A stretch of 40,752 bases of DNA from an uncultured Alphaproteobacteria bacterium (GTDB lineage: Bacteria > Pseudomonadota > Alphaproteobacteria > HIMB59 > GCA-002718135): the NCBI GenBank assembly GCA_902521315.1, contig CABYRH010000004.1, forward strand, positions 96,249-137,000, written 5' to 3'. Positions 2,878-34,886 of the stretch are shown here, piece by piece (the first letter of the stretch is position 1; each line of letters begins with the position of its first letter). The translations under genes and the position numbers were made by a program. The notes under the pieces are model-generated. The model saw nothing but the letters and a program-made list of their open reading frames with translations. It did not search any database and was not told the origin of the DNA.

Positions 2878-3833
2878 TAATAATGAACCCTCTTCTCAAT
2901 GACATATCTTTGGAAAAACGTTAACACAAGAATAAATCCAATAAAGACAACAGTGATTGCTGCACCGATACTTGTTAAGTTTTGTTGAATAGCTTTTTCA
3001 AAAATTGCATACATCATGACATACGTTGTTTTTGATGGACCACCTTTGGTCAGTATTTCGATTGTATCAAATACCTGAAATGTTCTAATGGTAGTAATAG
3101 TCACAACAAACAACGTTGTTGGACCAAGCATTGGCCATGTAACAAGTTTAAATTGTTCCCATGTAGATTTAGCCCCATCCATTTCTGCTGCTTGGTATAA
3201 CTCTCTTGGTATACTTGTTAAGCCAGCTAAATATAAAACCATGTTAAAACCAAAAGCCTGCCAAATTCCGATGAAACATACTGTCCAAATCGCTGTATTT
3301 TTTTGTTTTAACCAATATGGAAAATCCATGTTGTTTGCACATGCTACAGCATACCAGCTTTCTTGTGAGTCTACCCACGGCAACCAATGAAAACCAAGAA
3401 TGAATTCCCTAACTCCTCCACACCCATTTGCTAAAAAACTATTTACAATTCCTAATGTTGGATGAAGAGTAAATTCCCATGCAATTGCCATTGCAAGAAG
3501 AGTTGCCATAACTGGAAGAAAGAAAATTGTTTTATATATATCAGCGCCAAACCTTAGTGAATTTAGGAGCATTGCAGCACATAATCCAAGTACAACAGAA
3601 ATTGGAACGACAACAATAACATACGTCGCTGTGGCCCAAATCATTTTGACATATGTTTTTCGATTGAACATCTTGTCATAATTTTCTAGTCCAACCCACT
3701 CGAATGTTTTGTTTCCTAAATTATAGTCAGTAAAAGAAATTCCTCCTGCAAGAAAAAGAGGAAAAATTAAAATAATTATCATCAGTATGATTGCTGGAGC
3801 AATAAACCATATGTGAGCTTTTGAATTATGCAT
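2877..3833 (-). CDS. UgpA-like ABC transporter inner-membrane permease
   Basis: 318 residues, six predicted helices, CUT1 family (UgpA/MalF type). The coupling loop reads ELYQAAEMDGAKSTWEQFK, near residue 235-255. A long periplasmic insertion (about residues 135-180) contains several cysteines and tryptophans, which is unusual and may contact the binding protein. It overlaps the ATPase gene by 8 bp and the next permease by 1 bp. With these it forms an importer whose binding protein is probably the one encoded at 7953, across the phnA-phnY pair. Confidence 0.85.
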   Translation of the reverse strand: MHNSKAHIWFIAPAIILMIIILIFPLFLAGGISFTDYNLGNKTFEWVGLENYDKMFNRKTYVKMIWATATYVIVVVPISVVLGLCAAMLLNSLRFGADIYKTIFFLPVMATLLAMAIAWEFTLHPTLGIVNSFLANGCGGVREFILGFHWLPWVDSQESWYAVACANNMDFPYWLKQKNTAIWTVCFIGIWQAFGFNMVLYLAGLTSIPRELYQAAEMDGAKSTWEQFKLVTWPMLGPTTLFVVTITTIRTFQVFDTIEILTKGGPSKTTYVMMYAIFEKAIQQNLTSIGAAITVVFIGFILVLTFFQRYVIEKRVHY

Positions 3834-4959
3834 TAGTAAATTGAACCCTCATTCCTGCTTGATTAAATAGTAATGCTTTATCTGAAACTCTTTTTATATT
3901 TACACTTGAACCGTTTGAAATTTGGTGAGTAAATTGTGGTAAGCCCCTTACAATTATTTTATTTGAACCGTCTTCAATATTTACATGAAAGAAAATATCT
4001 GAACCTAAATTTTCTCTATATGCAACTGTTCCACTAAATGTATTTTCATTACTTTCATTTGTAATTTCTAAATGTTCTGGTCGAATACCAATATGTAAAT
4101 CTGTATTACTTTCAGAACTTTTTCTTTTTAAATTAACGTTGAGAAAACTTACTGTCCCACTTGAGTCCGAAGTTCCTTTAAATATATTTATTTTTGGACT
4201 TCCAACAAACTGAGCTACACTTAATGAGGAAGGATTATCATATACTTCTTGAGGTGTATCTAGTTGTAATAAATTTCCATCAATCATAACTGCCATTCTA
4301 GAAGACATAGTTAACGCTTCTGCTTGATCATGTGTTACGTACACAAAAGTAGTTTTAAGTGAATTATGAAGTTCAGATAGTTCAGATCGCATGTGAACTC
4401 TCAAAGCTGCATCTAAATTTGAAAGAGGCTCATCCATTAAAAAGGCAACAGGCTCTCTAACCATAGCACGACCAAGAGCAACTCTTTGTCTTTGACCACC
4501 TGACAATTGTCCTGGTTTTCTATCCAATAGTTCTGAAATTTTTAGAGTTTCAGAAGTTTTATTTACTAATTGATTTATAGATTCTGTTTTCTCTTTTTTG
4601 CTTGGAGAAAAATTACCAATCAAGGGCAGTCTTTCAAATGCATTATAATCCCTGAGTCTTAATGGAGTTTCTAAATTTCTTCTTACTGTGAGATGAGGAT
4701 AAAGAGCATATGATTGGAAGACCATTGCCAAATCTCTTTCACTGGCTCTAACTCTATTTACATTTTTATTATCTATTAATACATCACCTGAAGTCTGCTG
4801 TTCCAATCCTGCAATTATTCTAAGTAATGTAGATTTACCACAACCAGATGGACCAACTAACGTTAAGAATTCTCCATCGTTTATATCAACATTCAAATTA
4901 TTAAGTACTTGTGTAGACCCAAATGACTTTGAAATATTTTTAAGTGATATTGTCCCCAC
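3826..4959 (-). CDS. UgpC/MalK-type ABC transporter ATPase
   Basis: 377 residues. Walker A is GPSGCGKST, the signature is LSGGQRQRVALGRA, Walker B is VAFLMDEPLSNLDA and the H-loop is THDQAEA. A C-terminal TOBE/MOP-like regulatory domain follows residue 240 (IGIRPEHLEI). This is the UgpC/MalK architecture. An insertion of about 25 residues between the Q-loop and the signature (around residues 100-135) is longer than in E. coli MalK. First gene of the minus-strand operon. A candidate triple Pho box lies about 70 bp upstream, suggesting induction by phosphate starvation. Confidence 0.88.
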   Translation of the reverse strand: MGTISLKNISKSFGSTQVLNNLNVDINDGEFLTLVGPSGCGKSTLLRIIAGLEQQTSGDVLIDNKNVNRVRASERDLAMVFQSYALYPHLTVRRNLETPLRLRDYNAFERLPLIGNFSPSKKEKTESINQLVNKTSETLKISELLDRKPGQLSGGQRQRVALGRAMVREPVAFLMDEPLSNLDAALRVHMRSELSELHNSLKTTFVYVTHDQAEALTMSSRMAVMIDGNLLQLDTPQEVYDNPSSLSVAQFVGSPKINIFKGTSDSSGTVSFLNVNLKRKSSESNTDLHIGIRPEHLEITNESNENTFSGTVAYRENLGSDIFFHVNIEDGSNKIIVRGLPQFTHQISNGSSVNIKRVSDKALLFNQAGMRVQFTNA

Positions 4960-5028: not shown

Positions 5029-5057
5029 ATTTCAGTTTTATTTCAATTTTATTAACA
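5029..5057 (-). promoter_or_regulatory. Candidate Pho box (three heptamers) for the ABC importer operon
   Basis: On the minus strand TGTTAAT, TTGAAAT and CTGAAAT occur exactly 11 bp apart, with AAAA spacers. The 11-bp period is the hallmark of PhoB sites. The last heptamer ends about 70 bp before the ATPase start. Confidence 0.5.
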
Positions 5058-7872: not shown

Positions 7873-7901
7873 TAGTAATATTTTCGTAATAAAATTGTAA
7901 C
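7873..7901 (+). promoter_or_regulatory. Candidate Pho box (three heptamers) for the binding-protein gene
   Basis: TAGTAAT (7873), TCGTAAT (7884) and TTGTAAC (7895) are in strict 11-bp phase. They end 51 bp before the start codon. This is one of the clearest copies of the motif in the window. Confidence 0.6.
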
Positions 7902-7952
7902 CCTTTGAGGCTACGTGTTAGATTAATATTATATTTGAATCGGAGGGATTAA

Positions 7953-9206: not shown

Positions 9207-9236
9207 TTTGAGATTATTTATTATTAACTTTTTATT

Positions 9237-9265
9237 ACAGCGGCTTTATAAAAGCCGCTGTTTTA
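9237..9265 (+). terminator. Rho-independent terminator or attenuator after the binding protein
   Basis: A perfect 11-bp inverted repeat (ACAGCGGCTTT / AAAGCCGCTGT) with a 3-base loop is followed by TTTATTTT. It lies inside the likely transcript, so it would allow more binding protein than downstream enzymes, as is common in ABC importer operons. Confidence 0.85.
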
Positions 9266-9293
9266 TTTTAAATTTAAATGGGAGTAAAAATAG

Positions 9294-18096: not shown

Positions 18097-18125
18097 GTTA
18101 AATTTTTGTTACAATTTGATTAATA
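18097..18125 (-). promoter_or_regulatory. Candidate Pho box (three heptamers) for the DUF47-pit operon
   Basis: On the minus strand TATTAAT, TTGTAAC and ATTTAAC are 11 bp apart with A-rich spacers. The last two heptamers and spacer nearly equal those before phoB. Confidence 0.6.
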
Positions 18126-18180: not shown

Positions 18181-18408
18181 ATGACAGATTTATCAATTAA
18201 TAGAATTAAGTGGTTTAGCACCGCGTTAATTTTATCAGGAATATTATTAACCAATTTAAATGCGTATCCAATTAACATAATTATTCACGGTACAGGTGCT
18301 GTTGGTTGGTCAATTGTTGGTTATATGACAAAAGATAGAGCTCTGCTCACAAACTTTGGTTTACAACTCCCACTATTTATTTTTGGATATATTTATTTGC
18401 TAACATGA
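18181..18408 (+). CDS. Small membrane protein of unknown function
   Basis: 75 residues with two to three hydrophobic segments (FSTALILSGILLTNL, IIHGTGAVGWSIVGY, LQLPLFIFGYIYLL). The ribosome site AGGAG is 7 bp upstream. It resembles small alphaproteobacterial proteins annotated as DUF6552, with low certainty. It overlaps arsC by 4 bp (ATGA), so it is translated with arsenate reductase and may belong to the same response. Confidence 0.7.
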   Translation: MTDLSINRIKWFSTALILSGILLTNLNAYPINIIIHGTGAVGWSIVGYMTKDRALLTNFGLQLPLFIFGYIYLLT

Positions 18409-18824
18409 AAAATAAAAATATTCTTTTTATGTGTGTTGCTAATTCAGCAAGAAGTCAAATGGCTGAAGGAATTGCAAAAAAATTATATCCTAATTGCATT
18501 ATTCAAAGTGCAGGATCAGTGCCCAAAGAAGTTAATCCTAATGCTATCGAGGTTATGGGTGAAATCGATATTGATATATCAAAACATTATTCAAAAGATT
18601 TTGAAAGTTTAGACAACAAATTTAGAGATGAATTAAATACCGTTTTTACGCTTTGTAAAGAAGAGGTATGTCCAGTTTTAAATTCCAAAGCTCAGATATT
18701 TTCAATACCATTTGATGATCCGGCATCAGATCATTTTAGTTCAAACCAATTAGATAAATTTAGAGAAGTAAGAGATTCAATTTTTGATAAATTGAAAGAA
18801 CTAAAAAATTTATTTGAGAATTAA
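18405..18824 (+). CDS. arsC: Arsenate reductase, thioredoxin-linked low-molecular-weight phosphatase type
   Basis: 139 residues. The P-loop is C10-VANSAR, and the redox cysteines C84 and C89 (TLCKEEVCP) with the DDPA motif match the Cys10-Cys82-Cys89 relay of the S. aureus pI258 enzyme. It reduces arsenate to arsenite. Arsenate enters through phosphate transporters, so its place beside pit and inside a phosphate-starvation island makes sense. The likely exit channel is the AqpS-like gene at 25534. A degraded copy of its last 21 codons lies at 21775. Confidence 0.9.
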   Translation: MKNKNILFMCVANSARSQMAEGIAKKLYPNCIIQSAGSVPKEVNPNAIEVMGEIDIDISKHYSKDFESLDNKFRDELNTVFTLCKEEVCPVLNSKAQIFSIPFDDPASDHFSSNQLDKFREVRDSIFDKLKELKNLFEN

Positions 18825-18961
18825 TGAAGTTAAAAATTAATTAAATTTATAAAAATTTAATATTCCATTAATCTATCTGTAAACAATAAAATTTAAATGC
18901 TTCTTACCACTCACAGTATTATTTCCTCCTGCTAATTACCAATAATTGTGAGTGGGATTAA
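18764..18961 (+). repeat. Direct repeat, copy 1 (arsC end plus downstream element)
   Basis: The last codons of arsC and the following non-coding DNA recur at 21775-21972, about 3011 bp away. The copies are largely identical by eye with very few indels. Between them lie the acyltransferase, plcP and glycosyltransferase genes. Confidence 0.9.
18866..18883 (+). promoter_or_regulatory. Pho-box-like pair upstream of candidate RNA, copy 1
   Basis: CATTAAT and CTGTAAA are 11 bp apart. A -10-like TTAAAT follows at 18893-18898, which would place the transcript start near 18905, just before the hairpin. The pair is kept in copy 2. Confidence 0.42.
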
Positions 18962-18972
18962 TTTTTTATTTC
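18904..18972 (+). ncRNA. Candidate structured small RNA, copy 1
   Basis: CCACTCACA (18907-18915) pairs perfectly with TGTGAGTGG (18947-18955), and G-U and U-A extend the stem. The loop of about 30 bases contains TTTCCTCCTGC, an anti-Shine-Dalgarno-like CU stretch. A T6 run follows at 18962-18967, so the transcript could end there. The same structure occurs at 21914. It could also be an arsC terminator, though the loop is unusually long for that. No known RNA family recognised. Confidence 0.45.
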
Positions 18973-18986
18973 TCCTTTTTCGAGTA

Positions 18987-19004
18987 CTTTAACAATTGTT
19001 TAAC
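18987..19004 (+). promoter_or_regulatory. Candidate Pho box for the acyltransferase gene
   Basis: CTTTAAC and GTTTAAC are exactly 11 bp apart, followed by a -10-like TATAAAAT at 19008, and ending 31 bp before the ATG. Confidence 0.5.
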
Positions 19005-19035
19005 ATTATAAAATTAAGAATTTAAAGTAAATTTT

Positions 19036-19878
19036 ATGAAAATTAATAAACCAGCGCTTACCTTTTCTAACTCCGAAGTTAATCCTGTTGGAAAGATTAT
19101 TATTCAATTAACCGAATTGGGAACGGGTAAAATTAAGTTACGTAAGTTGTATGAGGATTATTTAAGAGAAAATTTACCTCCAGAGAATTTTTGGCATGAT
19201 GCAATTGAAAGATTAGGTCTCCGTGTTCAGACACATTATCATTCTAAAAGTAATATTCCTAAAAATGGCAAACTTGTAGTAATCGCTAACCATGCATTTG
19301 GAATAGCTGATGGTCTTACAATATGCTCTTTAATTAGTAAAATTAGACAAGATTACAAAATTATTACGCATAAAGTTTTACAAGGAGCAGATCTTATTAA
19401 GAATAAAATTATTCCTCTTGATTTTTCAAAAAATAGAAATGCTTTAATAAATAATATCGCTGCACGTAAAGAATGCGAAGAACACTTAAGAAATAATGGG
19501 GCACTAATCATTTTTCCATCAGGATCAGTTTCAACGAAACCAAAATTAAAAAAAGGAATCAAAGCAATAGATCGTGAATGGAAACAATTTACTTCAAAAA
19601 TAATAATGAAAACTCAATCACCTGTCCTCCCAATTTTTTTTGAAGGACAAAATAGCGAACTTTTTCATGTTGCTGATAAAATTGGGCAAGTCTTTCGATA
19701 TTCTTTAATGATATATGAACTTAAAAGAAGAATGGGAAAAAAAATTGATGTTCATATTGGACAAAGAATACCCTTTGAAACCATAAAAGAAATTGGCAAT
19801 CTTATAGAGATTACAAAATTTTTAAGGAATAGCACTTATAGATTAGATCCAAGTAATAAAAACTCAATATTTAATTAA
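19036..19878 (+). CDS. PlsC-like lysophospholipid/acyl-lipid acyltransferase
   Basis: 280 residues. Motif I is NHAFGIADG (H86, D92), the form seen in the hemolysin/OlsA-related branch (NHPFGG-D-type), and IFPSGSVS at 159-166 is motif III. It should transfer an acyl group to a glycerol- or amino-lipid at the inner membrane. An uncharged N-terminal stretch but no clear transmembrane helix, so peripheral. It sits inside the direct-repeat-bounded cassette with plcP and a glycosyltransferase. A role in re-acylating diacylglycerol or building a phosphorus-free lipid is inferred. Confidence 0.75.
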   Translation: MKINKPALTFSNSEVNPVGKIIIQLTELGTGKIKLRKLYEDYLRENLPPENFWHDAIERLGLRVQTHYHSKSNIPKNGKLVVIANHAFGIADGLTICSLISKIRQDYKIITHKVLQGADLIKNKIIPLDFSKNRNALINNIAARKECEEHLRNNGALIIFPSGSVSTKPKLKKGIKAIDREWKQFTSKIIMKTQSPVLPIFFEGQNSELFHVADKIGQVFRYSLMIYELKRRMGKKIDVHIGQRIPFETIKEIGNLIEITKFLRNSTYRLDPSNKNSIFN

Positions 19879-19899
19879 TACTTCTGTAAAAAAAAATTT

Positions 19900-19928
19900 A
19901 GTTAATGTAATTGAAATAAAATTTTAAC
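19900..19928 (+). promoter_or_regulatory. Candidate Pho box (three heptamers) for plcP copy 1
   Basis: AGTTAAT, TTGAAAT and TTTTAAC are in 11-bp phase with A-rich spacers and end 27 bp before the start codon. Confidence 0.5.
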
Positions 19929-19955
19929 AAATTCTTTCTATTATTTATTAATAAA

Positions 19956-20762
19956 ATGAAAGATCAGCAATCAGTTTCATATTATAGAACTATATGGATA
20001 TCTGATCTTCATCTAGGAACAGAAAATAGCAAGAGTGAAATGCTTCTTGAATTTTTGAGATCAACAGATTCAAAATATTTATTTTTAGTTGGCGATATTA
20101 TTGATGCATGGAGAATGAAAAAAAAAATTTATTGGCATCAAACTCATAATGACATTATCCAGAAGATTTTGCGTAAAGCAAGAAAAGGTACAAAAGTAAT
20201 ATTTATCCCAGGTAATCATGACGAACTTGTGAAAAGTTACACAAGTTTTTCACTAGGGAATATATCAATAAAAAATAAGTTTACACACAAATTAGCTGAT
20301 GGAAGAAATGCCCTTGTTTTACATGGTGATGAATTTGATGCAGTTATATTAAACGCTAAATGGCTGGCAAGTATTGGGTCATCTCTATACGAATTTATAT
20401 TAAAGTTGAATAACTATCTAAATTTTGTCAGAAGAAAACTAGGTCTATCTTATTGGTCATTATCTCAATTTCTCAAACATCAAACAAAAAGAGCCACGAA
20501 TTTTATTTCTAACTTTGAGTTTGCCGTATCTGATAGTGCTAAAAGAGCAAATGCTGATGTTGTTGTGTGCGGCCATATTCATAAGCCCATTATAAAAAAA
20601 TTAAATGGAGTTTTATATTGCAATGATGGTGATTGGGTTGAGAGTTGTTCTGCGCTAGTGGAAAATAATGAGGGACAATTATCCCTTATTGACTGGTCAA
20701 TTGAAAGAGAAAAAATTTTTCAACATAAACATAACAAACTAGCAGAAAGTGTATTAGTGTGA
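19956..20762 (+). CDS. plcP: PlcP phospholipase C for lipid remodelling, copy 1
   Basis: 268 residues, calcineurin-like metallophosphoesterase. Metal-site residues are D17 and H19 (SDLHLG), D47 (GDIID), N87 to D89 (GNHDE), H123 (LHGDEFD), H207 and H209 (GHIHKP). This fits PlcP, which removes phosphate head groups from phospholipids under phosphate starvation, giving diacylglycerol for glycolipids. UDP-diacylglucosamine pyrophosphatase LpxH is a relative, but the adjoining glycosyltransferase argues for PlcP. It overlaps that gene by 4 bp (GTGA). A close paralogue, clearly more than half identical by eye, is at 27202. Confidence 0.85.
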   Translation: MKDQQSVSYYRTIWISDLHLGTENSKSEMLLEFLRSTDSKYLFLVGDIIDAWRMKKKIYWHQTHNDIIQKILRKARKGTKVIFIPGNHDELVKSYTSFSLGNISIKNKFTHKLADGRNALVLHGDEFDAVILNAKWLASIGSSLYEFILKLNNYLNFVRRKLGLSYWSLSQFLKHQTKRATNFISNFEFAVSDSAKRANADVVVCGHIHKPIIKKLNGVLYCNDGDWVESCSALVENNEGQLSLIDWSIEREKIFQHKHNKLAESVLV

Positions 20763-21754
20763 AAAAATTAGCGATCATTACCGATGCTTGGCTTCCCCAA
20801 GTTAATGGTGTGGTAAATACATACCAACATATTAATCCATTTTTAAAACAAAAGTATCAAATTGAAGTACTCCACCCAATGATGTTTACTAATTTTAGTT
20901 ATCCTTGGTATAAGGAAATAAAAATAGCAATTAATACAAAAAAAATAACAGAAAAATTTTTTGGTGATTATGATCCAGATGTTATACATATTGCCACTGA
21001 AGGACCAGTTGGAATTGCGGGGAAAAAATTCTGTGAGAATAATAAGTTGAGATATACAACCTCTTTTCATACGAGATTTCCAGAATATATAGAGCAAAGA
21101 ATAATGATACCAAAAATAATTGGGTACTCTTTTTTAAAAAATTTTCATAAAAATGCATGTAATGTATTGGTCCCAACAATATCTATGCGTAACGAATTAA
21201 CTAAATATCAATTTCAAAATCTTAAAATTTGGTCAAGGGGAGTTAATACTGAATTATTTAATCCTTTAAAAAGAAAAAAGGGAATGAAAAAGTATATTGT
21301 TTACATTGGTAGGGTTTCATTAGAAAAAAACATCGAAGCGTTTTTAGAAATAAGAACTAAGATGCATAAAATTGTTGTTGGAGATGGTCCAGAAAAGCAA
21401 CGATTACAAAATAAATATCCATATGTGTCTTTCGTTGGGATGAAAAAAGGTCTAGATCTAGCAAACTATTATGCAAATGCTGAAGCATTGGTATTCCCAT
21501 CCAAAACAGATACATTTGGAAATGTAATTTTAGAGTCTTTAGCCTCTGGCACACCAGTGGCTGCTTACCCAGTAACAGGTCCTAAAGATATTTTAAAAAA
21601 CTCATTAATTGATAGCCTTGATAATAATATTGAAAACTCACTTAATAAAGCCTTAAAGATTGATAGAAAAGATTGTAGAAAATTTGCAATGCAATTTACT
21701 TGGGATAAATGTGCAAATCAATTTCTATCAAATGTTGTAAATGCAAAAAATTAA
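20759..21754 (+). CDS. Agt-type diacylglycerol glycosyltransferase, copy 1
   Basis: 331 residues, GT-B fold, GT4 family. The N-terminus is ITDAWLPQVNGVVNTY, the SQD2/Agt opening, with TSFHTRFPEY mid-domain. The C-domain has YIGRVSLEKNIE, VVGDGPE and the EX7E-like stretch FPSKTDTFGNVILESLASGTP. Such enzymes add glucose or glucuronate to diacylglycerol made by PlcP. GTG start overlapping the plcP stop, so coupled. The sugar donor cannot be read from sequence. Confidence 0.83.
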   Translation: MKKLAIITDAWLPQVNGVVNTYQHINPFLKQKYQIEVLHPMMFTNFSYPWYKEIKIAINTKKITEKFFGDYDPDVIHIATEGPVGIAGKKFCENNKLRYTTSFHTRFPEYIEQRIMIPKIIGYSFLKNFHKNACNVLVPTISMRNELTKYQFQNLKIWSRGVNTELFNPLKRKKGMKKYIVYIGRVSLEKNIEAFLEIRTKMHKIVVGDGPEKQRLQNKYPYVSFVGMKKGLDLANYYANAEALVFPSKTDTFGNVILESLASGTPVAAYPVTGPKDILKNSLIDSLDNNIENSLNKALKIDRKDCRKFAMQFTWDKCANQFLSNVVNAKN

Positions 21755-21774
21755 TTTTAAAATTATAGTTACTA

Positions 21775-21838
21775 AGAAGTAAGAGATTCAATTTTCAAAA
21801 ATTGAAGGAACTAAAAAATTTATTTGAAAACCAATAAA
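21775..21838 (+). pseudogene. Remnant of the arsC 3' end
   Basis: Aligns base by base with the last 21 arsC codons. One base is missing after EVRDSIF, which creates a stop. No start or upstream part of arsC is present, so it is a duplication scar and not a gene. Confidence 0.8.
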
Positions 21839-21875
21839 TTAAAAAATTAGTTTAATTTATAAAAATTTAATATTC

Positions 21876-21893
21876 TATTAACACGTCTGTAAA
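21876..21893 (+). promoter_or_regulatory. Pho-box-like pair upstream of candidate RNA, copy 2
   Basis: TATTAAC and CTGTAAA are 11 bp apart. Three bases of the first heptamer and the spacer changed from copy 1 but the motif and phase are kept. A -10-like TTTAAT follows. Confidence 0.42.
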
Positions 21894-21913
21894 AAATAAA
21901 ATTTAATTACATC

Positions 21914-21980
21914 TTACCACTCGCAGTATTATTTCTTCCTGCTTATGTCCAATTATTGTGAGTGGGATTAAATTCCATTT
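21914..21980 (+). ncRNA. Candidate structured small RNA, copy 2
   Basis: CCACTCGCA (21917-21925) faces TGTGAGTGG (21957-21965). The A-to-G change from copy 1 gives a G-U pair, so the stem is preserved. The loop keeps TATTATTTCTTCCTGC. The following T runs are weaker than in copy 1. It converges on ppk1 with no gap, so its transcript could touch the ppk1 message end. Confidence 0.42.
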
Positions 21981-24080
21981 TCAAATTTTTAAATTAGACT
22001 TAGCTCTAGATTTGAGTTTTGCTGAACCCCTCCCAGACAAGCTTGGATTTTTGATAAAAAAATTGTGAGAGGAAAATTTTTTTTCTTTGCTTGATATTTC
22101 TTTTTTCTGATAATTGCCATTACTCAACATTTGCCAAGAATTTGTATTATCTGCCATACTGGCAATTAAGATCTGATTTAATATTTGTTCATGTACAGTT
22201 TCATTTTCAATAGGGATGAATGTTTCAACCCGCCTATCTAGATTTCTTTGCATTAAATCGGCAGAAGAAATAAACAAGATATTTTTTCTATGAGGGAATT
22301 TATGACCGTTATAAAAACAATATATTCTCGTATGTTCTAAAAAACGACCAATTATACTTTTAACAACTATATTTTCCGATAGATTTTCTTTACCAGGTAT
22401 TAGAGAGCAAATTCCTCTTATCAACAATTCAATTTTTACATTTTTTTGAGATGCTTTATAAAATTCATCAATAATTTGTTTATCAACAAGAGAATTACAC
22501 TTACATACTATTCCAGATGGTTTATTTTTTCCAGCATTTGTAATTTCATTTCTAATTAGTTCATTTAATTTGTTTCTTGCAGTTATTGGAGAATATACTA
22601 TTTTTTTTATTGTGGTTGGTTCTGAATAACTAGTTAAATAATTAAACATTTTTGCAGCATCATTTGTTAATGTTTTGTCACAGGTGAAGTAAGATAAATC
22701 CATATAAACTCTTGCATTTCTTGGGTGATAATTACCTGTTCCATAATGTGCGTAATTTACAACAGAATTCATTTGCTTCCTTGTTACAAGTGTAATTTTT
22801 GCATGAGTTTTCATATCAATATTGCCAAAAACAACTTGCGCTCCAGCTAATTCTAATTCTTTTGCCCATTTTAAGTTACGCTCTTCATCAAAACGTGCTT
22901 GCAACTCTATAATGACAGTTACTAATTTTCCTTTTTGTGCTGCTCTAACTAAACTTGCTTCTATTGGTGAGTCATCAGTAGTTCGGTATAAAGTATGTTT
23001 TATTGATAAGACTTTTGGGTCATCTGCAGCTTGATCAATAAACTGAGTCACTACTTCAAAAGATTCAAAAGGGTGATGAATAACAATATCTTTATTTGCT
23101 ATAGCTTTAAAATAATCATTTTTAAAATCTTTAATTCTTTCAGGAAATCGTACCTTAAATTTTGGAAAAAATAATTTTTTAAAATCTTTCAAAAAAATTG
23201 ACTCTATACTCGAAAGATTAACGGGTATTGGCAGTTTATATGTATTTACATCCTTATAGTTAAGTTTTTTATTTATGAATTTAATTAAGTGACTAGATAT
23301 ACTTTCATCAAAATCAATTCTTATTACCTCTTGTCTTCTTCTCTCAAAAATAGCTTTTTGAAATACTAAAAATAAATCTTCTCCCTCACCACCTAATTCT
23401 AATTCACTATTCCTAATTGGTCTAAAAACACCTTTATCCAAAACCCTATCACACTGGAAAATTTCTTTTAGAGAAATAAGTAGGGCTGTCTCCATAGATA
23501 CAAAACGTGTTTTTTTACCAGGTAATTTAATAAATTTTTCTAATCCCTCTGGCACTCTCAGTATTCCATAAAAAGTTTTTTTATTATTTATTAAACGACA
23601 TACTAAGGTTGTTTCTTTATTTGGTATAAAAGGAAATGGGTGAGATGGATCAATAATAATTGGCGTTAAAACTCCCCAATTATTTTCTTCTAAATAATTT
23701 TTAATAAATGTTTTATCTTTTGTTTTCAGTGTTTTTTCTACATCTATATGGATTTTGTTTTCTGAAAGCTCTCTTAGTAAATCTATCCATATTGATTTTA
23801 TATTTGAAATCATCTTCGATGTTTCTTTATCTATCAGCTTGAGTTGTTGTTGTGGTGTTAATCCATCAAAACTTTTATTTCGTGAAAATTTTTGAACATT
23901 CAATCCTGCTACTCTAACCATAAAAAATTCATCTAAATTAGAGAATGCTATTGATAAAAATCTAACCCTTTCTAAAAGTGGAATTTTACTATCAGATGTC
24001 TGACTTAAGACTCTTTCATTGAATTTTAGCCAAGACAATTCCCTGTTTGCATAGTTATAAGTGGTATTTTTTTTTAACAT
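21981..24080 (-). CDS. ppk1: Polyphosphate kinase 1
   Basis: 699 residues, full length for PPK1. The N domain opens with NRELSWLKFNERVL. The head domain follows. The catalytic C domains contain THAKITLVTRK (phosphorylated histidine), the second histidine in HTRIYCFYNGH, and SSADLMQRNLDRRVE. It makes polyphosphate from ATP. The C-terminal tail is strongly basic. It lies 60 bp after sixA on the same strand. Confidence 0.95.
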   Translation of the reverse strand: MLKKNTTYNYANRELSWLKFNERVLSQTSDSKIPLLERVRFLSIAFSNLDEFFMVRVAGLNVQKFSRNKSFDGLTPQQQLKLIDKETSKMISNIKSIWIDLLRELSENKIHIDVEKTLKTKDKTFIKNYLEENNWGVLTPIIIDPSHPFPFIPNKETTLVCRLINNKKTFYGILRVPEGLEKFIKLPGKKTRFVSMETALLISLKEIFQCDRVLDKGVFRPIRNSELELGGEGEDLFLVFQKAIFERRRQEVIRIDFDESISSHLIKFINKKLNYKDVNTYKLPIPVNLSSIESIFLKDFKKLFFPKFKVRFPERIKDFKNDYFKAIANKDIVIHHPFESFEVVTQFIDQAADDPKVLSIKHTLYRTTDDSPIEASLVRAAQKGKLVTVIIELQARFDEERNLKWAKELELAGAQVVFGNIDMKTHAKITLVTRKQMNSVVNYAHYGTGNYHPRNARVYMDLSYFTCDKTLTNDAAKMFNYLTSYSEPTTIKKIVYSPITARNKLNELIRNEITNAGKNKPSGIVCKCNSLVDKQIIDEFYKASQKNVKIELLIRGICSLIPGKENLSENIVVKSIIGRFLEHTRIYCFYNGHKFPHRKNILFISSADLMQRNLDRRVETFIPIENETVHEQILNQILIASMADNTNSWQMLSNGNYQKKEISSKEKKFSSHNFFIKNPSLSGRGSAKLKSRAKSNLKI

Positions 24081-26210: not shown

Positions 26211-27212
26211 CTAAACGTTTACCATGAATTCTAAAAATTCATTCACACAATTGTCCCAAGTTAATTTAAGAGTAAAATTTCTACAATCAACTCTTTTTAC
26301 TTTAAGTGCCTTCTTAACTGATTGTAACAAGTTATTATCTAAAGTGTTAATCTTTTCATCTGTTAACACATCTATGGGCCCGGTTACTGGATATGCAGCA
26401 ATTGGTGTTCCACTAGCCAATGCTTCAAGTATTACATTTCCTAAAGTGTCTGTTTTAGAAGGAAAGACAAATACATCTGCGTTTGCATAATATTTCGCTA
26501 GTTCATCTCCAGTTTTTACACCGACAAAATTTACTTCAGGATATTTATTAATATATTTTTGTAATTCGGGACCATCACCCACAACAGTTTTATTATAATT
26601 TCCTTTAAGTTTTAAAAATTCTTCAATATTTTTTTCAATTGCTACTCTACCAACATAAGTCAGTTGTCTATCTTTACTGTTTGTGTCTCTTTTATTTGGA
26701 TTAAATAATTCTGTATCAACACCTCTATTCCAAACTACTAAATTTTTAAAATCATATTTTTTTAACTCATTTAGCATTGAAACTGATGGAACAAGAACTC
26801 TTTCTGAATCACTATGTAGTCTTCTTAATATGGAGTATGTAAATCTCTTTGGGATAAAAGCTCTTTGCTTCATGTAGTCAGGAAAACGGGTGTGAAAGGA
26901 AGAAGTGTATTGTAGTTTATTTTTAAGGCAGTACTTACGACCAGCAAAACCTACTGGACCTTCAGTCATTATATGAACAATATCTGGATTAAATTCTTTA
27001 AAAAATTTTTCAGTAACTTTTTTAGTATTGTAAGAAATTTTTATTTCTTTGTACCTAGGATAACTAAAATTATTAAACATCTCAGGATGTAATATTTTAA
27101 TTTCAAAACCTTTTTTTTCTAGAATAGGTATAACGCTTTGAAATGTCGTAACTACGCCATTTACCTGAGGAACCCACGCATCACTAATTAACGCGATTTT
27201 TTTAGGCTGCAT
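26211..27212 (-). CDS. Agt-type diacylglycerol glycosyltransferase, copy 2
   Basis: 333 residues and the same architecture as the copy at 20759: ISDAWVPQVNGVVTTF, TSFHTRFPDY, YVGRVAIEKNIEEF, VVGDGPE, FPSKTDTLGNVILEALASGTP. About half or more of the residues match by eye, so they are diverged paralogues and could differ in sugar (for example glucose against glucuronate, as reported for P-starved marine bacteria). It overlaps plcP copy 2 by 11 bp. Confidence 0.83.
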   Translation of the reverse strand: MQPKKIALISDAWVPQVNGVVTTFQSVIPILEKKGFEIKILHPEMFNNFSYPRYKEIKISYNTKKVTEKFFKEFNPDIVHIMTEGPVGFAGRKYCLKNKLQYTSSFHTRFPDYMKQRAFIPKRFTYSILRRLHSDSERVLVPSVSMLNELKKYDFKNLVVWNRGVDTELFNPNKRDTNSKDRQLTYVGRVAIEKNIEEFLKLKGNYNKTVVGDGPELQKYINKYPEVNFVGVKTGDELAKYYANADVFVFPSKTDTLGNVILEALASGTPIAAYPVTGPIDVLTDEKINTLDNNLLQSVKKALKVKRVDCRNFTLKLTWDNCVNEFLEFMVNV

Positions 27213-28014
27213 CCTCTTTTATTTTTCGTCTTTCTTCTAAAGAAATTAATTTTAATTTTTCTCTTTCTTCGGGCCAATTAAGAATTGATAAATTGCCAAT
27301 TTCATCTTCAACGAGTGCTGTGCAACTTTCAATCCAGTCACCATCATTACAATAGAGAACACCATTTAATTCCTTTATTTCTGGTCTATGTATATGCCCG
27401 CACACAACAATATCGGCATTTTCTCTTCTAGCTCTGTCAGATACAGCAAACTCAAAGTTACTAATAAAGTTTGTTGCATGCTTAGTTTTCTTTTTTAAAT
27501 ATTGAGACAGTGACCAATAAGACAAGCCCATCTTTCGTCGAATAAAATTGAATACATTATTTAACTTTAGTAAATATTCATAAAGTGCTGATCCCACTTT
27601 GGCTAACCACCTCGCATTAATTATCACAGCATCAAATTCATCTCCGTGTGTAATCAGTACTTTCCTTCCATCAGCTAATTGATGCGTATCTTCATTTTTT
27701 ATTGAAATTTCTCCAAAGGAAAAATTTGTAAAATCTTTTAATACTTCATCATGATTTCCTGGGATAAGCACTACCCTAGTTCCATTTTTCGCTTTCTTTA
27801 AAACTTTTTGAACCACGTCGTTATGTTCTTGTGGCCAATACATTTTCTTACGCATGCGCCATCCATCAACAATGTCGCCTACTAAAAATAAATATTCCGA
27901 ATCTGTTTCTTCTAAGAATTCTAAAAGCATTTTGCTTTTACAACCACTGGTTCCTAGATGGGTATCCGAAATCCAAATTGTGCGGTAAAATTTTTTATTA
28001 CTTTCAAATTTCAT
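27202..28014 (-). CDS. plcP: PlcP phospholipase C for lipid remodelling, copy 2
   Basis: 270 residues with all metal-site motifs (SDTHLG, GDIVDGW, GNHDE, HGDEFDA, GHIHRP). Very similar to copy 1, including ATNFISNFEFAVSD. First gene of the plcP-agt-aquaporin operon. No convincing Pho box upstream. CTGTTAT and ATACAAT at 28082-28099 on this strand are 11 bp apart but match poorly, so the two copies may be differently controlled. Confidence 0.85.
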   Translation of the reverse strand: MKFESNKKFYRTIWISDTHLGTSGCKSKMLLEFLEETDSEYLFLVGDIVDGWRMRKKMYWPQEHNDVVQKVLKKAKNGTRVVLIPGNHDEVLKDFTNFSFGEISIKNEDTHQLADGRKVLITHGDEFDAVIINARWLAKVGSALYEYLLKLNNVFNFIRRKMGLSYWSLSQYLKKKTKHATNFISNFEFAVSDRARRENADIVVCGHIHRPEIKELNGVLYCNDGDWIESCTALVEDEIGNLSILNWPEEREKLKLISLEERRKIKEDAA

Positions 28015-30660: not shown

Positions 30661-30682
30661 AAATCTTAAATTTTTATAAAAT

Positions 30683-30708
30683 GGGGGCATACAAGCCCCC
30701 TTTTTTTT
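30683..30708 (+). terminator. Rho-independent terminator or attenuator between pstS and pstC
   Basis: GGGGGC and GCCCCC pair around a 6-base loop, followed by eight T. An intrinsic terminator inside the pst operon. Confidence 0.93.
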
Positions 30709-30723
30709 AATACTAAGTTATAA

Positions 30724-34846: not shown

Positions 34847-34864
34847 TTGTAATAGAATTGTAAC
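34847..34864 (+). promoter_or_regulatory. Candidate Pho box for phoB
   Basis: TTGTAAT and TTGTAAC are 11 bp apart, and ATTTAAT follows 11 bp later, overlapping a -10-like TTTAAT. The clearest copy of the motif, suggesting PhoB controls its own gene. Confidence 0.6.
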
Positions 34865-34886
34865 AAAAATTTAATAGTAGAGATTC

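Follow-up and report, generated by a model that had tools for sequence, protein, structure and literature searches.

The repeated hairpin after arsC

The window analysed here is a stretch of 40,752 nucleotides from an uncultured alphaproteobacterium of the HIMB59 lineage (positions 96,249 to 137,000 of contig CABYRH010000004.1; assembly GCA_902521315.1, 1.54 Mb in 35 contigs). Phosphorus genes are abundant in it, and include PHO4/PhoU_div, pstC- and pstA-like permeases, PhoU, a response regulator, a histidine kinase, two plcP-like/agt-like pairs and the polyphosphate kinase gene ppk. Our subject is a direct repeat within this stretch, each copy of which carries a hairpin preceded by a Pho-box-like array of heptamers. 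The first copy begins inside an arsC-like gene, three genes (acylT, plcP1 and agt1) lie between the copies, and the second copy stands between agt1 and ppk (Table 1).

Table 1. The direct repeat, its parts and the adjoining genes (window coordinates)
Feature	Position	Strand	Remarks
arsC-like gene (LMWPc / arsenate reductase family)	18405..18824	+	followed by the element; below NCBIfam equivalog cut-offs
Direct-repeat copy 1 (arsC-like 3' end, spacer, Pho-like array, hairpin)	18764..18985	+	83% identity to copy 2 over 199 nt; same place in relatives
Pho-box-like array, copy 1	18855..18883	+	ATTTAAT/CATTAAT/CTGTAAA, 11-bp spacing; triple score rank 14 of 81448
Hairpin, copy 1	18907..18955	+	11-bp stem, 27-nt loop with UUUCCUCCUGC (18922-18932), then GATTAATTTTTT
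Separate Pho-like box (CTTTAACAATTGTTTAAC) upstream of acylT	18987..19004	+	outside repeat; rank 28 of 81470; G001 counterpart scores 13.5
acylT, acyltransferase, first cassette gene	19036..19878	+	like acyltransferase part of OlsF and GlsA, below their cut-offs
Partial third copy of AATTAAT..CTGTAAA part, after acylT	19873..19890	+	no hairpin; within D2 19851-19896; triple rank 108 of 81448
Strong Pho-like box upstream of plcP1	19900..19928	+	partly used in matrix training
plcP1, calcineurin-like phosphoesterase	19956..20762	+	plcP name inferred from pairing with agt
agt1, GT4-type glycosyltransferase	20759..21754	+	agt name inferred
Direct-repeat copy 2 (arsC remnant, spacer, Pho-like array, hairpin)	21776..21990	+	between agt1 and ppk; repeat comparison, relatives
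Pho-box-like array, copy 2	21865..21893	+	ATTTAAT/TATTAAC/CTGTAAA; triple score rank 6 of 81448
Hairpin, copy 2	21917..21965	+	same stem with one G-U; loop UUUCUUCCUGC (21932-21942); no U-run directly after
ppk, polyphosphate kinase 1	21981..24080	-	convergent with element; right neighbour in single-copy genomes

A first-pass annotation, made from the letters of the window, had described two copies of an element with the same order of parts. Self-comparison of the window bears this out: the pair forms a direct repeat (D1) of 199 aligned nucleotides at 83% identity, with a spacing of 3010 and collinear parts. The repeat is larger than had been reported, at about 200 bp (~18764-18985 and ~21776-21990), and takes in the last ~60 bp of the arsC-like open reading frame (ORF) at 18405-18824; since it begins inside this gene, copy 2 holds an arsC-like 3' remnant. 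The stem-loop likewise stands with altered dimensions, 11 bp closing a loop of 27 nt in place of 9 bp and about 30 (18907-18917 pairing with 18945-18955, and 21917-21927 with 21955-21965), and the described change of an A-U to a G-U pair between the copies is real (A at 18913, G at 21923).

With at least 11 contiguous pairs, at least five G-C pairs and a loop of 20-40, these two are the only hairpins in the whole window, and the same criteria gave 2 in total on 30 random windows of like composition; the stem holds five G-C pairs, and a setting of at least six returned no hairpin in the window. Relative to shuffles, 72-nt stretches of the two copies fold with z scores of -3.7 and -4.2 and longer stretches around them with -1.6 to -2.5, and homologues in three related genomes reach -5.0 (G064), -3.8 (G063) and -4.3 (G023). 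A tRNA scan of the window found none. A small peptide encoded over the hairpin was considered and rejected: in copy 1 a frame of 12 codons starts with the ATG at 18897, and this ATG is absent, by eye, from copy 2 and from G023, G063 and G064.

Conservation and distribution

In the case of 16 distinct sequences, 97.7% of the cells in the stem are paired, a value as high being seen in 1 of 500 shuffles, and pairing drops to 31-53% when the alignment is slid by one to three columns. Two of the 11 pairs are changed on both sides, C-G to U-A in three rows and A-U to G-C in one (10 of 500 shuffles reach this count); four others vary one-sidedly, four are invariant, and in one the only departure is a failure. 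Of the 176 cells 4 fail, pair 10 accounting for three of these and pair 9 for the fourth. Both the covariation score and the number of double-changed cells lie above every shuffle (0 of 500), and an earlier count on 14 rows gave a similar result. The close clade alone shows only one-sided stem changes, and independent double changes are few, at least two, because all three U-A rows and the G-C row come from diverged genomes. The first-pass annotation had staked its proposal on a stem conserved in related genomes and, checked with models and covariation, pairing is indeed kept, with the two compensated pairs found in diverged genomes. We take this as good evidence, albeit from few events, for a selected RNA structure with compensatory changes. 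Among 37 distinct close-clade repeats, a set without copy 1 of G017 and G098, the columns that vary number 4 of 22 in the stem, 10 of 27 in the loop, 9 of 29 in the Pho array, 7 of 23 in the start region, 13 of 31 in the spacer, 19 of 54 in the arsC end and 17 of 25 downstream.

At E<=0.1, model R1 matched 52 of the 102 genomes of the genus, with 49 strong matches, the window's own genome included, and weak ones in G064, G002 and G097; over the order it matched 53 of 162 genomes, adding a strong match in G129 and a weak one in G141. The weak matches in G002 and G097 were taken as chance, there being no arsC or ppk within the 9.5 kb examined. An arsC-like gene is present in 57 of the 162 genomes of the order, and the hairpin in 54 of these, 50 of them with a strong match. 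Diverged forms occupy the same place after arsC in G064, G063, G081 and G082, whose arsC is 68-70% identical (for G064, 70%, with 76% identity in the C-terminal part of ppk). No hairpin was seen after arsC in G025, the contig of G003 ends inside arsC, and G130, with an arsC 57% identical, has a different inverted repeat after the gene. Because 54 of the 57 arsC genomes carry it, also where the cassette is absent, the hairpin tracks arsC and not the lipid cassette; the absence of arsC from the remaining genomes is only partly informative, since most genomes are incomplete.

Over the class, model R2 with strict filters matched 2 of 385 genomes, both of this genus, and viral contigs gave 0 matches. 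At the 3' ends of ppk genes of the other family, no such hairpin was seen by eye in 8 of the 28 listed (~500 nt each). A pattern scan of public genomes, with a pattern that cannot match the G064 form, returned 59 stretches, all from uncultured Alphaproteobacteria (AG- isolates) or Pelagibacterales SAG-MED31, and from the titles of these genomes we call the host group SAR11-type.

The cassette between the repeats

All 49 other genomes with strong matches were examined for the layout of the locus. Thirty carry two copies, which in every case enclose acylT, plcP1 and agt1, 17 read arsC-hairpin-ppk with a single copy and no cassette, and two (G001 and G129) read arsC-hairpin-acylT-ppk. To judge from these arrangements, the basic locus is arsC-hairpin-ppk with one copy. 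The earlier description of an element flanking a lipid-remodelling cassette is right in that two copies enclose acylT-plcP1-agt1, but the element is not part of the cassette and follows arsC also without it.

The motif used to measure spacing matched 28 of the 30 two-copy genomes, missing G017 and G098 because their copy 1 carries a stem change; the copies lie ~3.0 kb apart in 22 genomes, 4.8 kb in four and 9.1 kb in two. Extra cargo was read in G015, G074, G071 and G080, which include two of the four 4.8-kb genomes, and comprises an ORF of 470-477 amino acids, acidic and secreted-looking by eye, with no Pfam match in the one tested. The cargo of G074 and G080 also holds a solute-binding protein, two permeases and an ATPase (by Pfam for G074), a set that may be ugpBAEC-like. 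The coordinates of cargo in relatives are L081:3215-7356, L081:8541-9974, L082:9862-11274, L032:9207-10637 and L085:4775-6205.

Judged by 29 columns at which the two copies can be distinguished, six of the 17 cassette-free single copies are chimeric. G031 shows one switch, from copy-1 to copy-2 type; in G024, G077, G090, G115 and G118 the switch point is a different one, and G118 has one reversion besides. The 11 that remain match the copy-2 type except in one or two columns. Chimeric single copies fit crossover between the repeats. Most simply, the second copy would be the footprint of a recombination that left the phosphorus cassette with a copy of the arsC 3' end and hairpin on either side. 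Loss of the cassette when the repeats cross over would fit, and so would exchange between chromosomes with and without it. The locus shows gain and loss of phosphorus genes in SAR11-type genomes at one site with flanking repeats of ordinary host sequence, where phosphorus-related cargo varies in size and the single-copy chimeras look like losses.

Among the neighbouring genes, a 75-amino-acid membrane-protein-like ORF (18181-18408) overlaps the start of arsC and probably belongs to one operon with it. The two plcP-agt-like pairs of the window lie on opposite strands (19956-21754 and 26211-28014), with plcP parts ~71% identical over 736 nt. The AATTAAT..CTGTAAA part without a hairpin follows the acylT stop codon at the same place in L032, L081, L082 and L085.

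Possible roles and known relatives

We tentatively favour the reading that, under phosphate starvation, the arsC 3' region gives rise to a short RNA consisting of a single hairpin, the loop of which would pair with ribosome-binding sites. The element would be the 3'-terminal part of the arsC transcription unit, from which an RNA of ~55-70 nt would probably be released under phosphate starvation, either with the Pho-like array as its promoter or through read-through and processing of the arsC mRNA; the pyrimidine-rich, partly anti-Shine-Dalgarno-like loop would then pair with purine-rich ribosome-binding sites. To the conserved and compensated hairpin, its constant place after arsC and the Pho-like array of the close clade, this reading adds transcription, Pho control, release of the RNA and targets, all of which we infer. 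It is favoured because the long loop is conserved, because no T-run adjoins the stem in copy 2 or the single-copy forms, and because the array stands at promoter distance.

The Pho scoring matrix was built from seven hand-picked sites elsewhere in the window. Against random intergenic sequence, three heptamers scored together give p values of ~0.01 (copy 1) and ~0.0014 (copy 2), which carry the choice among three scoring forms and the seven-site matrix, since only the three-heptamer form stands out; two heptamers give 0.12 and 0.026, and two-heptamer scoring without the spacer ranks the copies 147 and 40 of 81470. The top five triple matches are, or contain, training sites, and copy 2 is the first without one. 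Other triple arrays, themselves training sites, lie at 5029-5057 (-) near an ABC operon, 7873-7901 near a binding-protein gene, 18097-18125 (-) near the PHO4 operon and 34847-34875 near the response-regulator gene. The array is kept in G001, G023 and G024 (triple scores 9.4-10.6). For the close clade, a promoter before the hairpin is plausible; in more distant genomes it is unproven, given how array and upstream block compare in G063 and G064. Of the Pho box assigned to the element by the first-pass annotation there remains, in the close clade, a plausible Pho-type array of three heptamers at promoter distance.

Minor variants aside, copy 1 has the loop sequence UUUCCUCCUGC, copy 2 shares UUUCUUCCUGC with the majority of single-copy genomes, G064 has UUUUCCUCCUUG, and G063, G081 and G082 have CUUUUUCUGCCG. 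In the diverged G064, UUUCCUCCU is kept at nearly the same offset. A CU-rich loop able to pair with Shine-Dalgarno sites had been proposed; the loop is pyrimidine-rich throughout, but its exact anti-Shine-Dalgarno core is not retained, CCUCC being lost in one diverged lineage and replaced by CUUCC in copy 2. Pairing was predicted against 41 start regions of the window, some starts being uncertain and one off by one base. The best partner for all four loops tried is the start of an ABC ATPase gene (3826-4959; el1 -17.3 kcal/mol, 0.4% of random segments as good), and the target suggested earlier, a site near 7942 at the binding-protein gene, is not supported (el1 -12.5, matched by 4.5% of random segments).

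Several observations weigh against the hairpin-RNA reading. Pairing to the start regions is no better than that of shuffled loops (138 of 200 as good for el1, 60 for el2, 92 for G063 and 100 for G064), and the loop reads CUUUUUCUGCC in G063, G081 and G082, a lineage in which UUUCCUCCU is lost. As two-heptamer sites with spacer the arrays are weak (ranks 652 and 456 of 81470 for copies 1 and 2), and no array is recognisable in the diverged G063 (2.7) or G064 (3.6). The upstream block is weakly alike in G063 (12-42 of 1000 shuffles as good) and shows no likeness to that of G064 (718 and 828 of 1000); compared with each other, G063 and G064 give 30 of 1000. In the stem, pair 10 fails in 3 of 16 rows, pair 9 is U-U in copy 1 of G017 and G098, the number of further pair types is no higher than in shuffles (500 of 500 as high), and the advantage of the G001 hairpin in folding is only modest (z -1.85, with 7 of 200 shuffles doing at least as well). 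Finally, eight T's directly follow the stem in G064, as in a terminator, and the G063 hairpin (L116 1679-1732) overlaps, terminator-like, the coding end of a convergent MIP-family channel gene.

These last features suit an explanation that we regard as nearly as likely, namely that the hairpin is only the 3'-end structure of the arsC mRNA, a terminator or exonuclease barrier that insulates it from a convergent neighbour, with the Pho-like array being chance or decayed. The hairpin follows arsC, and a convergent gene has its stop codon nearby, be it ppk, the MIP-family channel gene that takes the place of ppk in G063 (L116:1013-1723) or the ABC ATPase gene of G074 and G080, and besides the T8 of G064, where the opposite strand is T-rich too by eye, G063 has a T-rich tail and copy 1 has T6 after 6 nt. 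Against it stand a 27-32-nt loop in which a pyrimidine motif is conserved, and the absence of a T-run immediately behind the stem of copy 2 and of the single-copy forms. Measured against an intrinsic terminator, the loop of 27 is long and the T-run is delayed in copy 1 and missing in copy 2, unlike in the two canonical-looking terminators of the window (9207-9293 and 30661-30723, by eye), which have short loops and an immediate T-run; the hairpin is missing from the terminator scan because the scan's loop limit of 3-8 excludes it by construction.

Two further explanations concern the cassette. Copy 1 lies upstream of acylT on the same strand, and the hairpin-acylT order is kept in G001 and G129, an arrangement that would suit a 5' leader: the Pho-like array would drive the acylT-plcP1-agt1 operon, and copy 1 would act in its leader as an attenuator or riboregulator. 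Such a role is improbable, however, as in 17 of 49 genomes the element faces the convergent ppk without any cassette, convergent genes lie at the end of copy 2 and of the diverged homologues, and downstream of copy 1 both acylT and plcP1 are preceded by separate Pho-like boxes, which speak against a leader. Less credible still is a conserved unit acting as DNA, an attachment-like inverted repeat serving as recombination or integration site for cassettes. Cargo is flanked by direct repeats and the chimeric single copies switch at two places, but the switch points differ within the 200-bp homology, as ordinary homologous recombination gives, no recombinase-like ORF occurs among the cargo ORFs examined, and the hairpin is kept in diverged genomes with no adjoining cassette.

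If true, the favoured reading, a structured RNA tied to phosphate starvation, would offer a useful lever on oligotroph adaptation, because transcriptional regulators are described as few in SAR11 and other oligotrophs with reduced genomes (PMC13198564). Its fullest form, a Pho-controlled anti-Shine-Dalgarno hairpin RNA of one SAR11 lineage that damps translation in phosphate starvation, from a locus doubling as landing and loss site for cassettes of phosphorus acquisition and lipid remodelling, is a bolder proposal that we hold to be unlikely as a whole.

The first-pass remark that no family with this layout is known agrees with Rfam, which has no match in the window at gathering score and, at a permissive threshold, a best sub-threshold E of 1.3 around copy 1. 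No paper recognised as describing the element came up in searches of the open-licence PMC literature, and excerpts of a Red Sea start-site study (PMC5069720) contain nothing on it. The alphaproteobacterial alpha-r14 or 'cuckoo' small RNAs, which are stress-linked, have CCUCCUCCC loops and vary in the stem while keeping an anti-Shine-Dalgarno-like loop (PMC3927594; PMC10746234), share with our candidate the stem-loop, the anti-Shine-Dalgarno-like loop and a putative link to stress. They differ in that no form of the loop here reads CCUCCUCCC, in that each copy here has one hairpin, with copies at least 3 kb apart, versus several hairpins per transcript there, and in that the loop sequence here is not kept in one diverged lineage. 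Of the same kind, single hairpins between genes with covariation, are candidates of Ca. Pelagibacter ubique, about half of which have a U-run and which were read as regulatory or termination signals (PMC2704228); those lie at other loci, among them the rhtB region. Section 10 of that paper places none of its four motifs beside arsC or ppk, and 'arsen' is absent from the main text. Intrinsic terminators resemble the hairpin in having a stem at a gene's 3' end and, for some copies, a T-rich tail, and differ from it in that its loop of conserved sequence measures 27-32 nt and in that many of its copies have no such tail immediately behind the stem. For the PlcP-Agt lipid-remodelling genes of SAR11, a figure legend marks Pho boxes upstream (PMC4796936), and the gene pair is of the same kind; excerpts of that paper describe no flanking repeat or hairpin, whereas here the pair occurs twice, one of the two within a repeat-flanked cassette.

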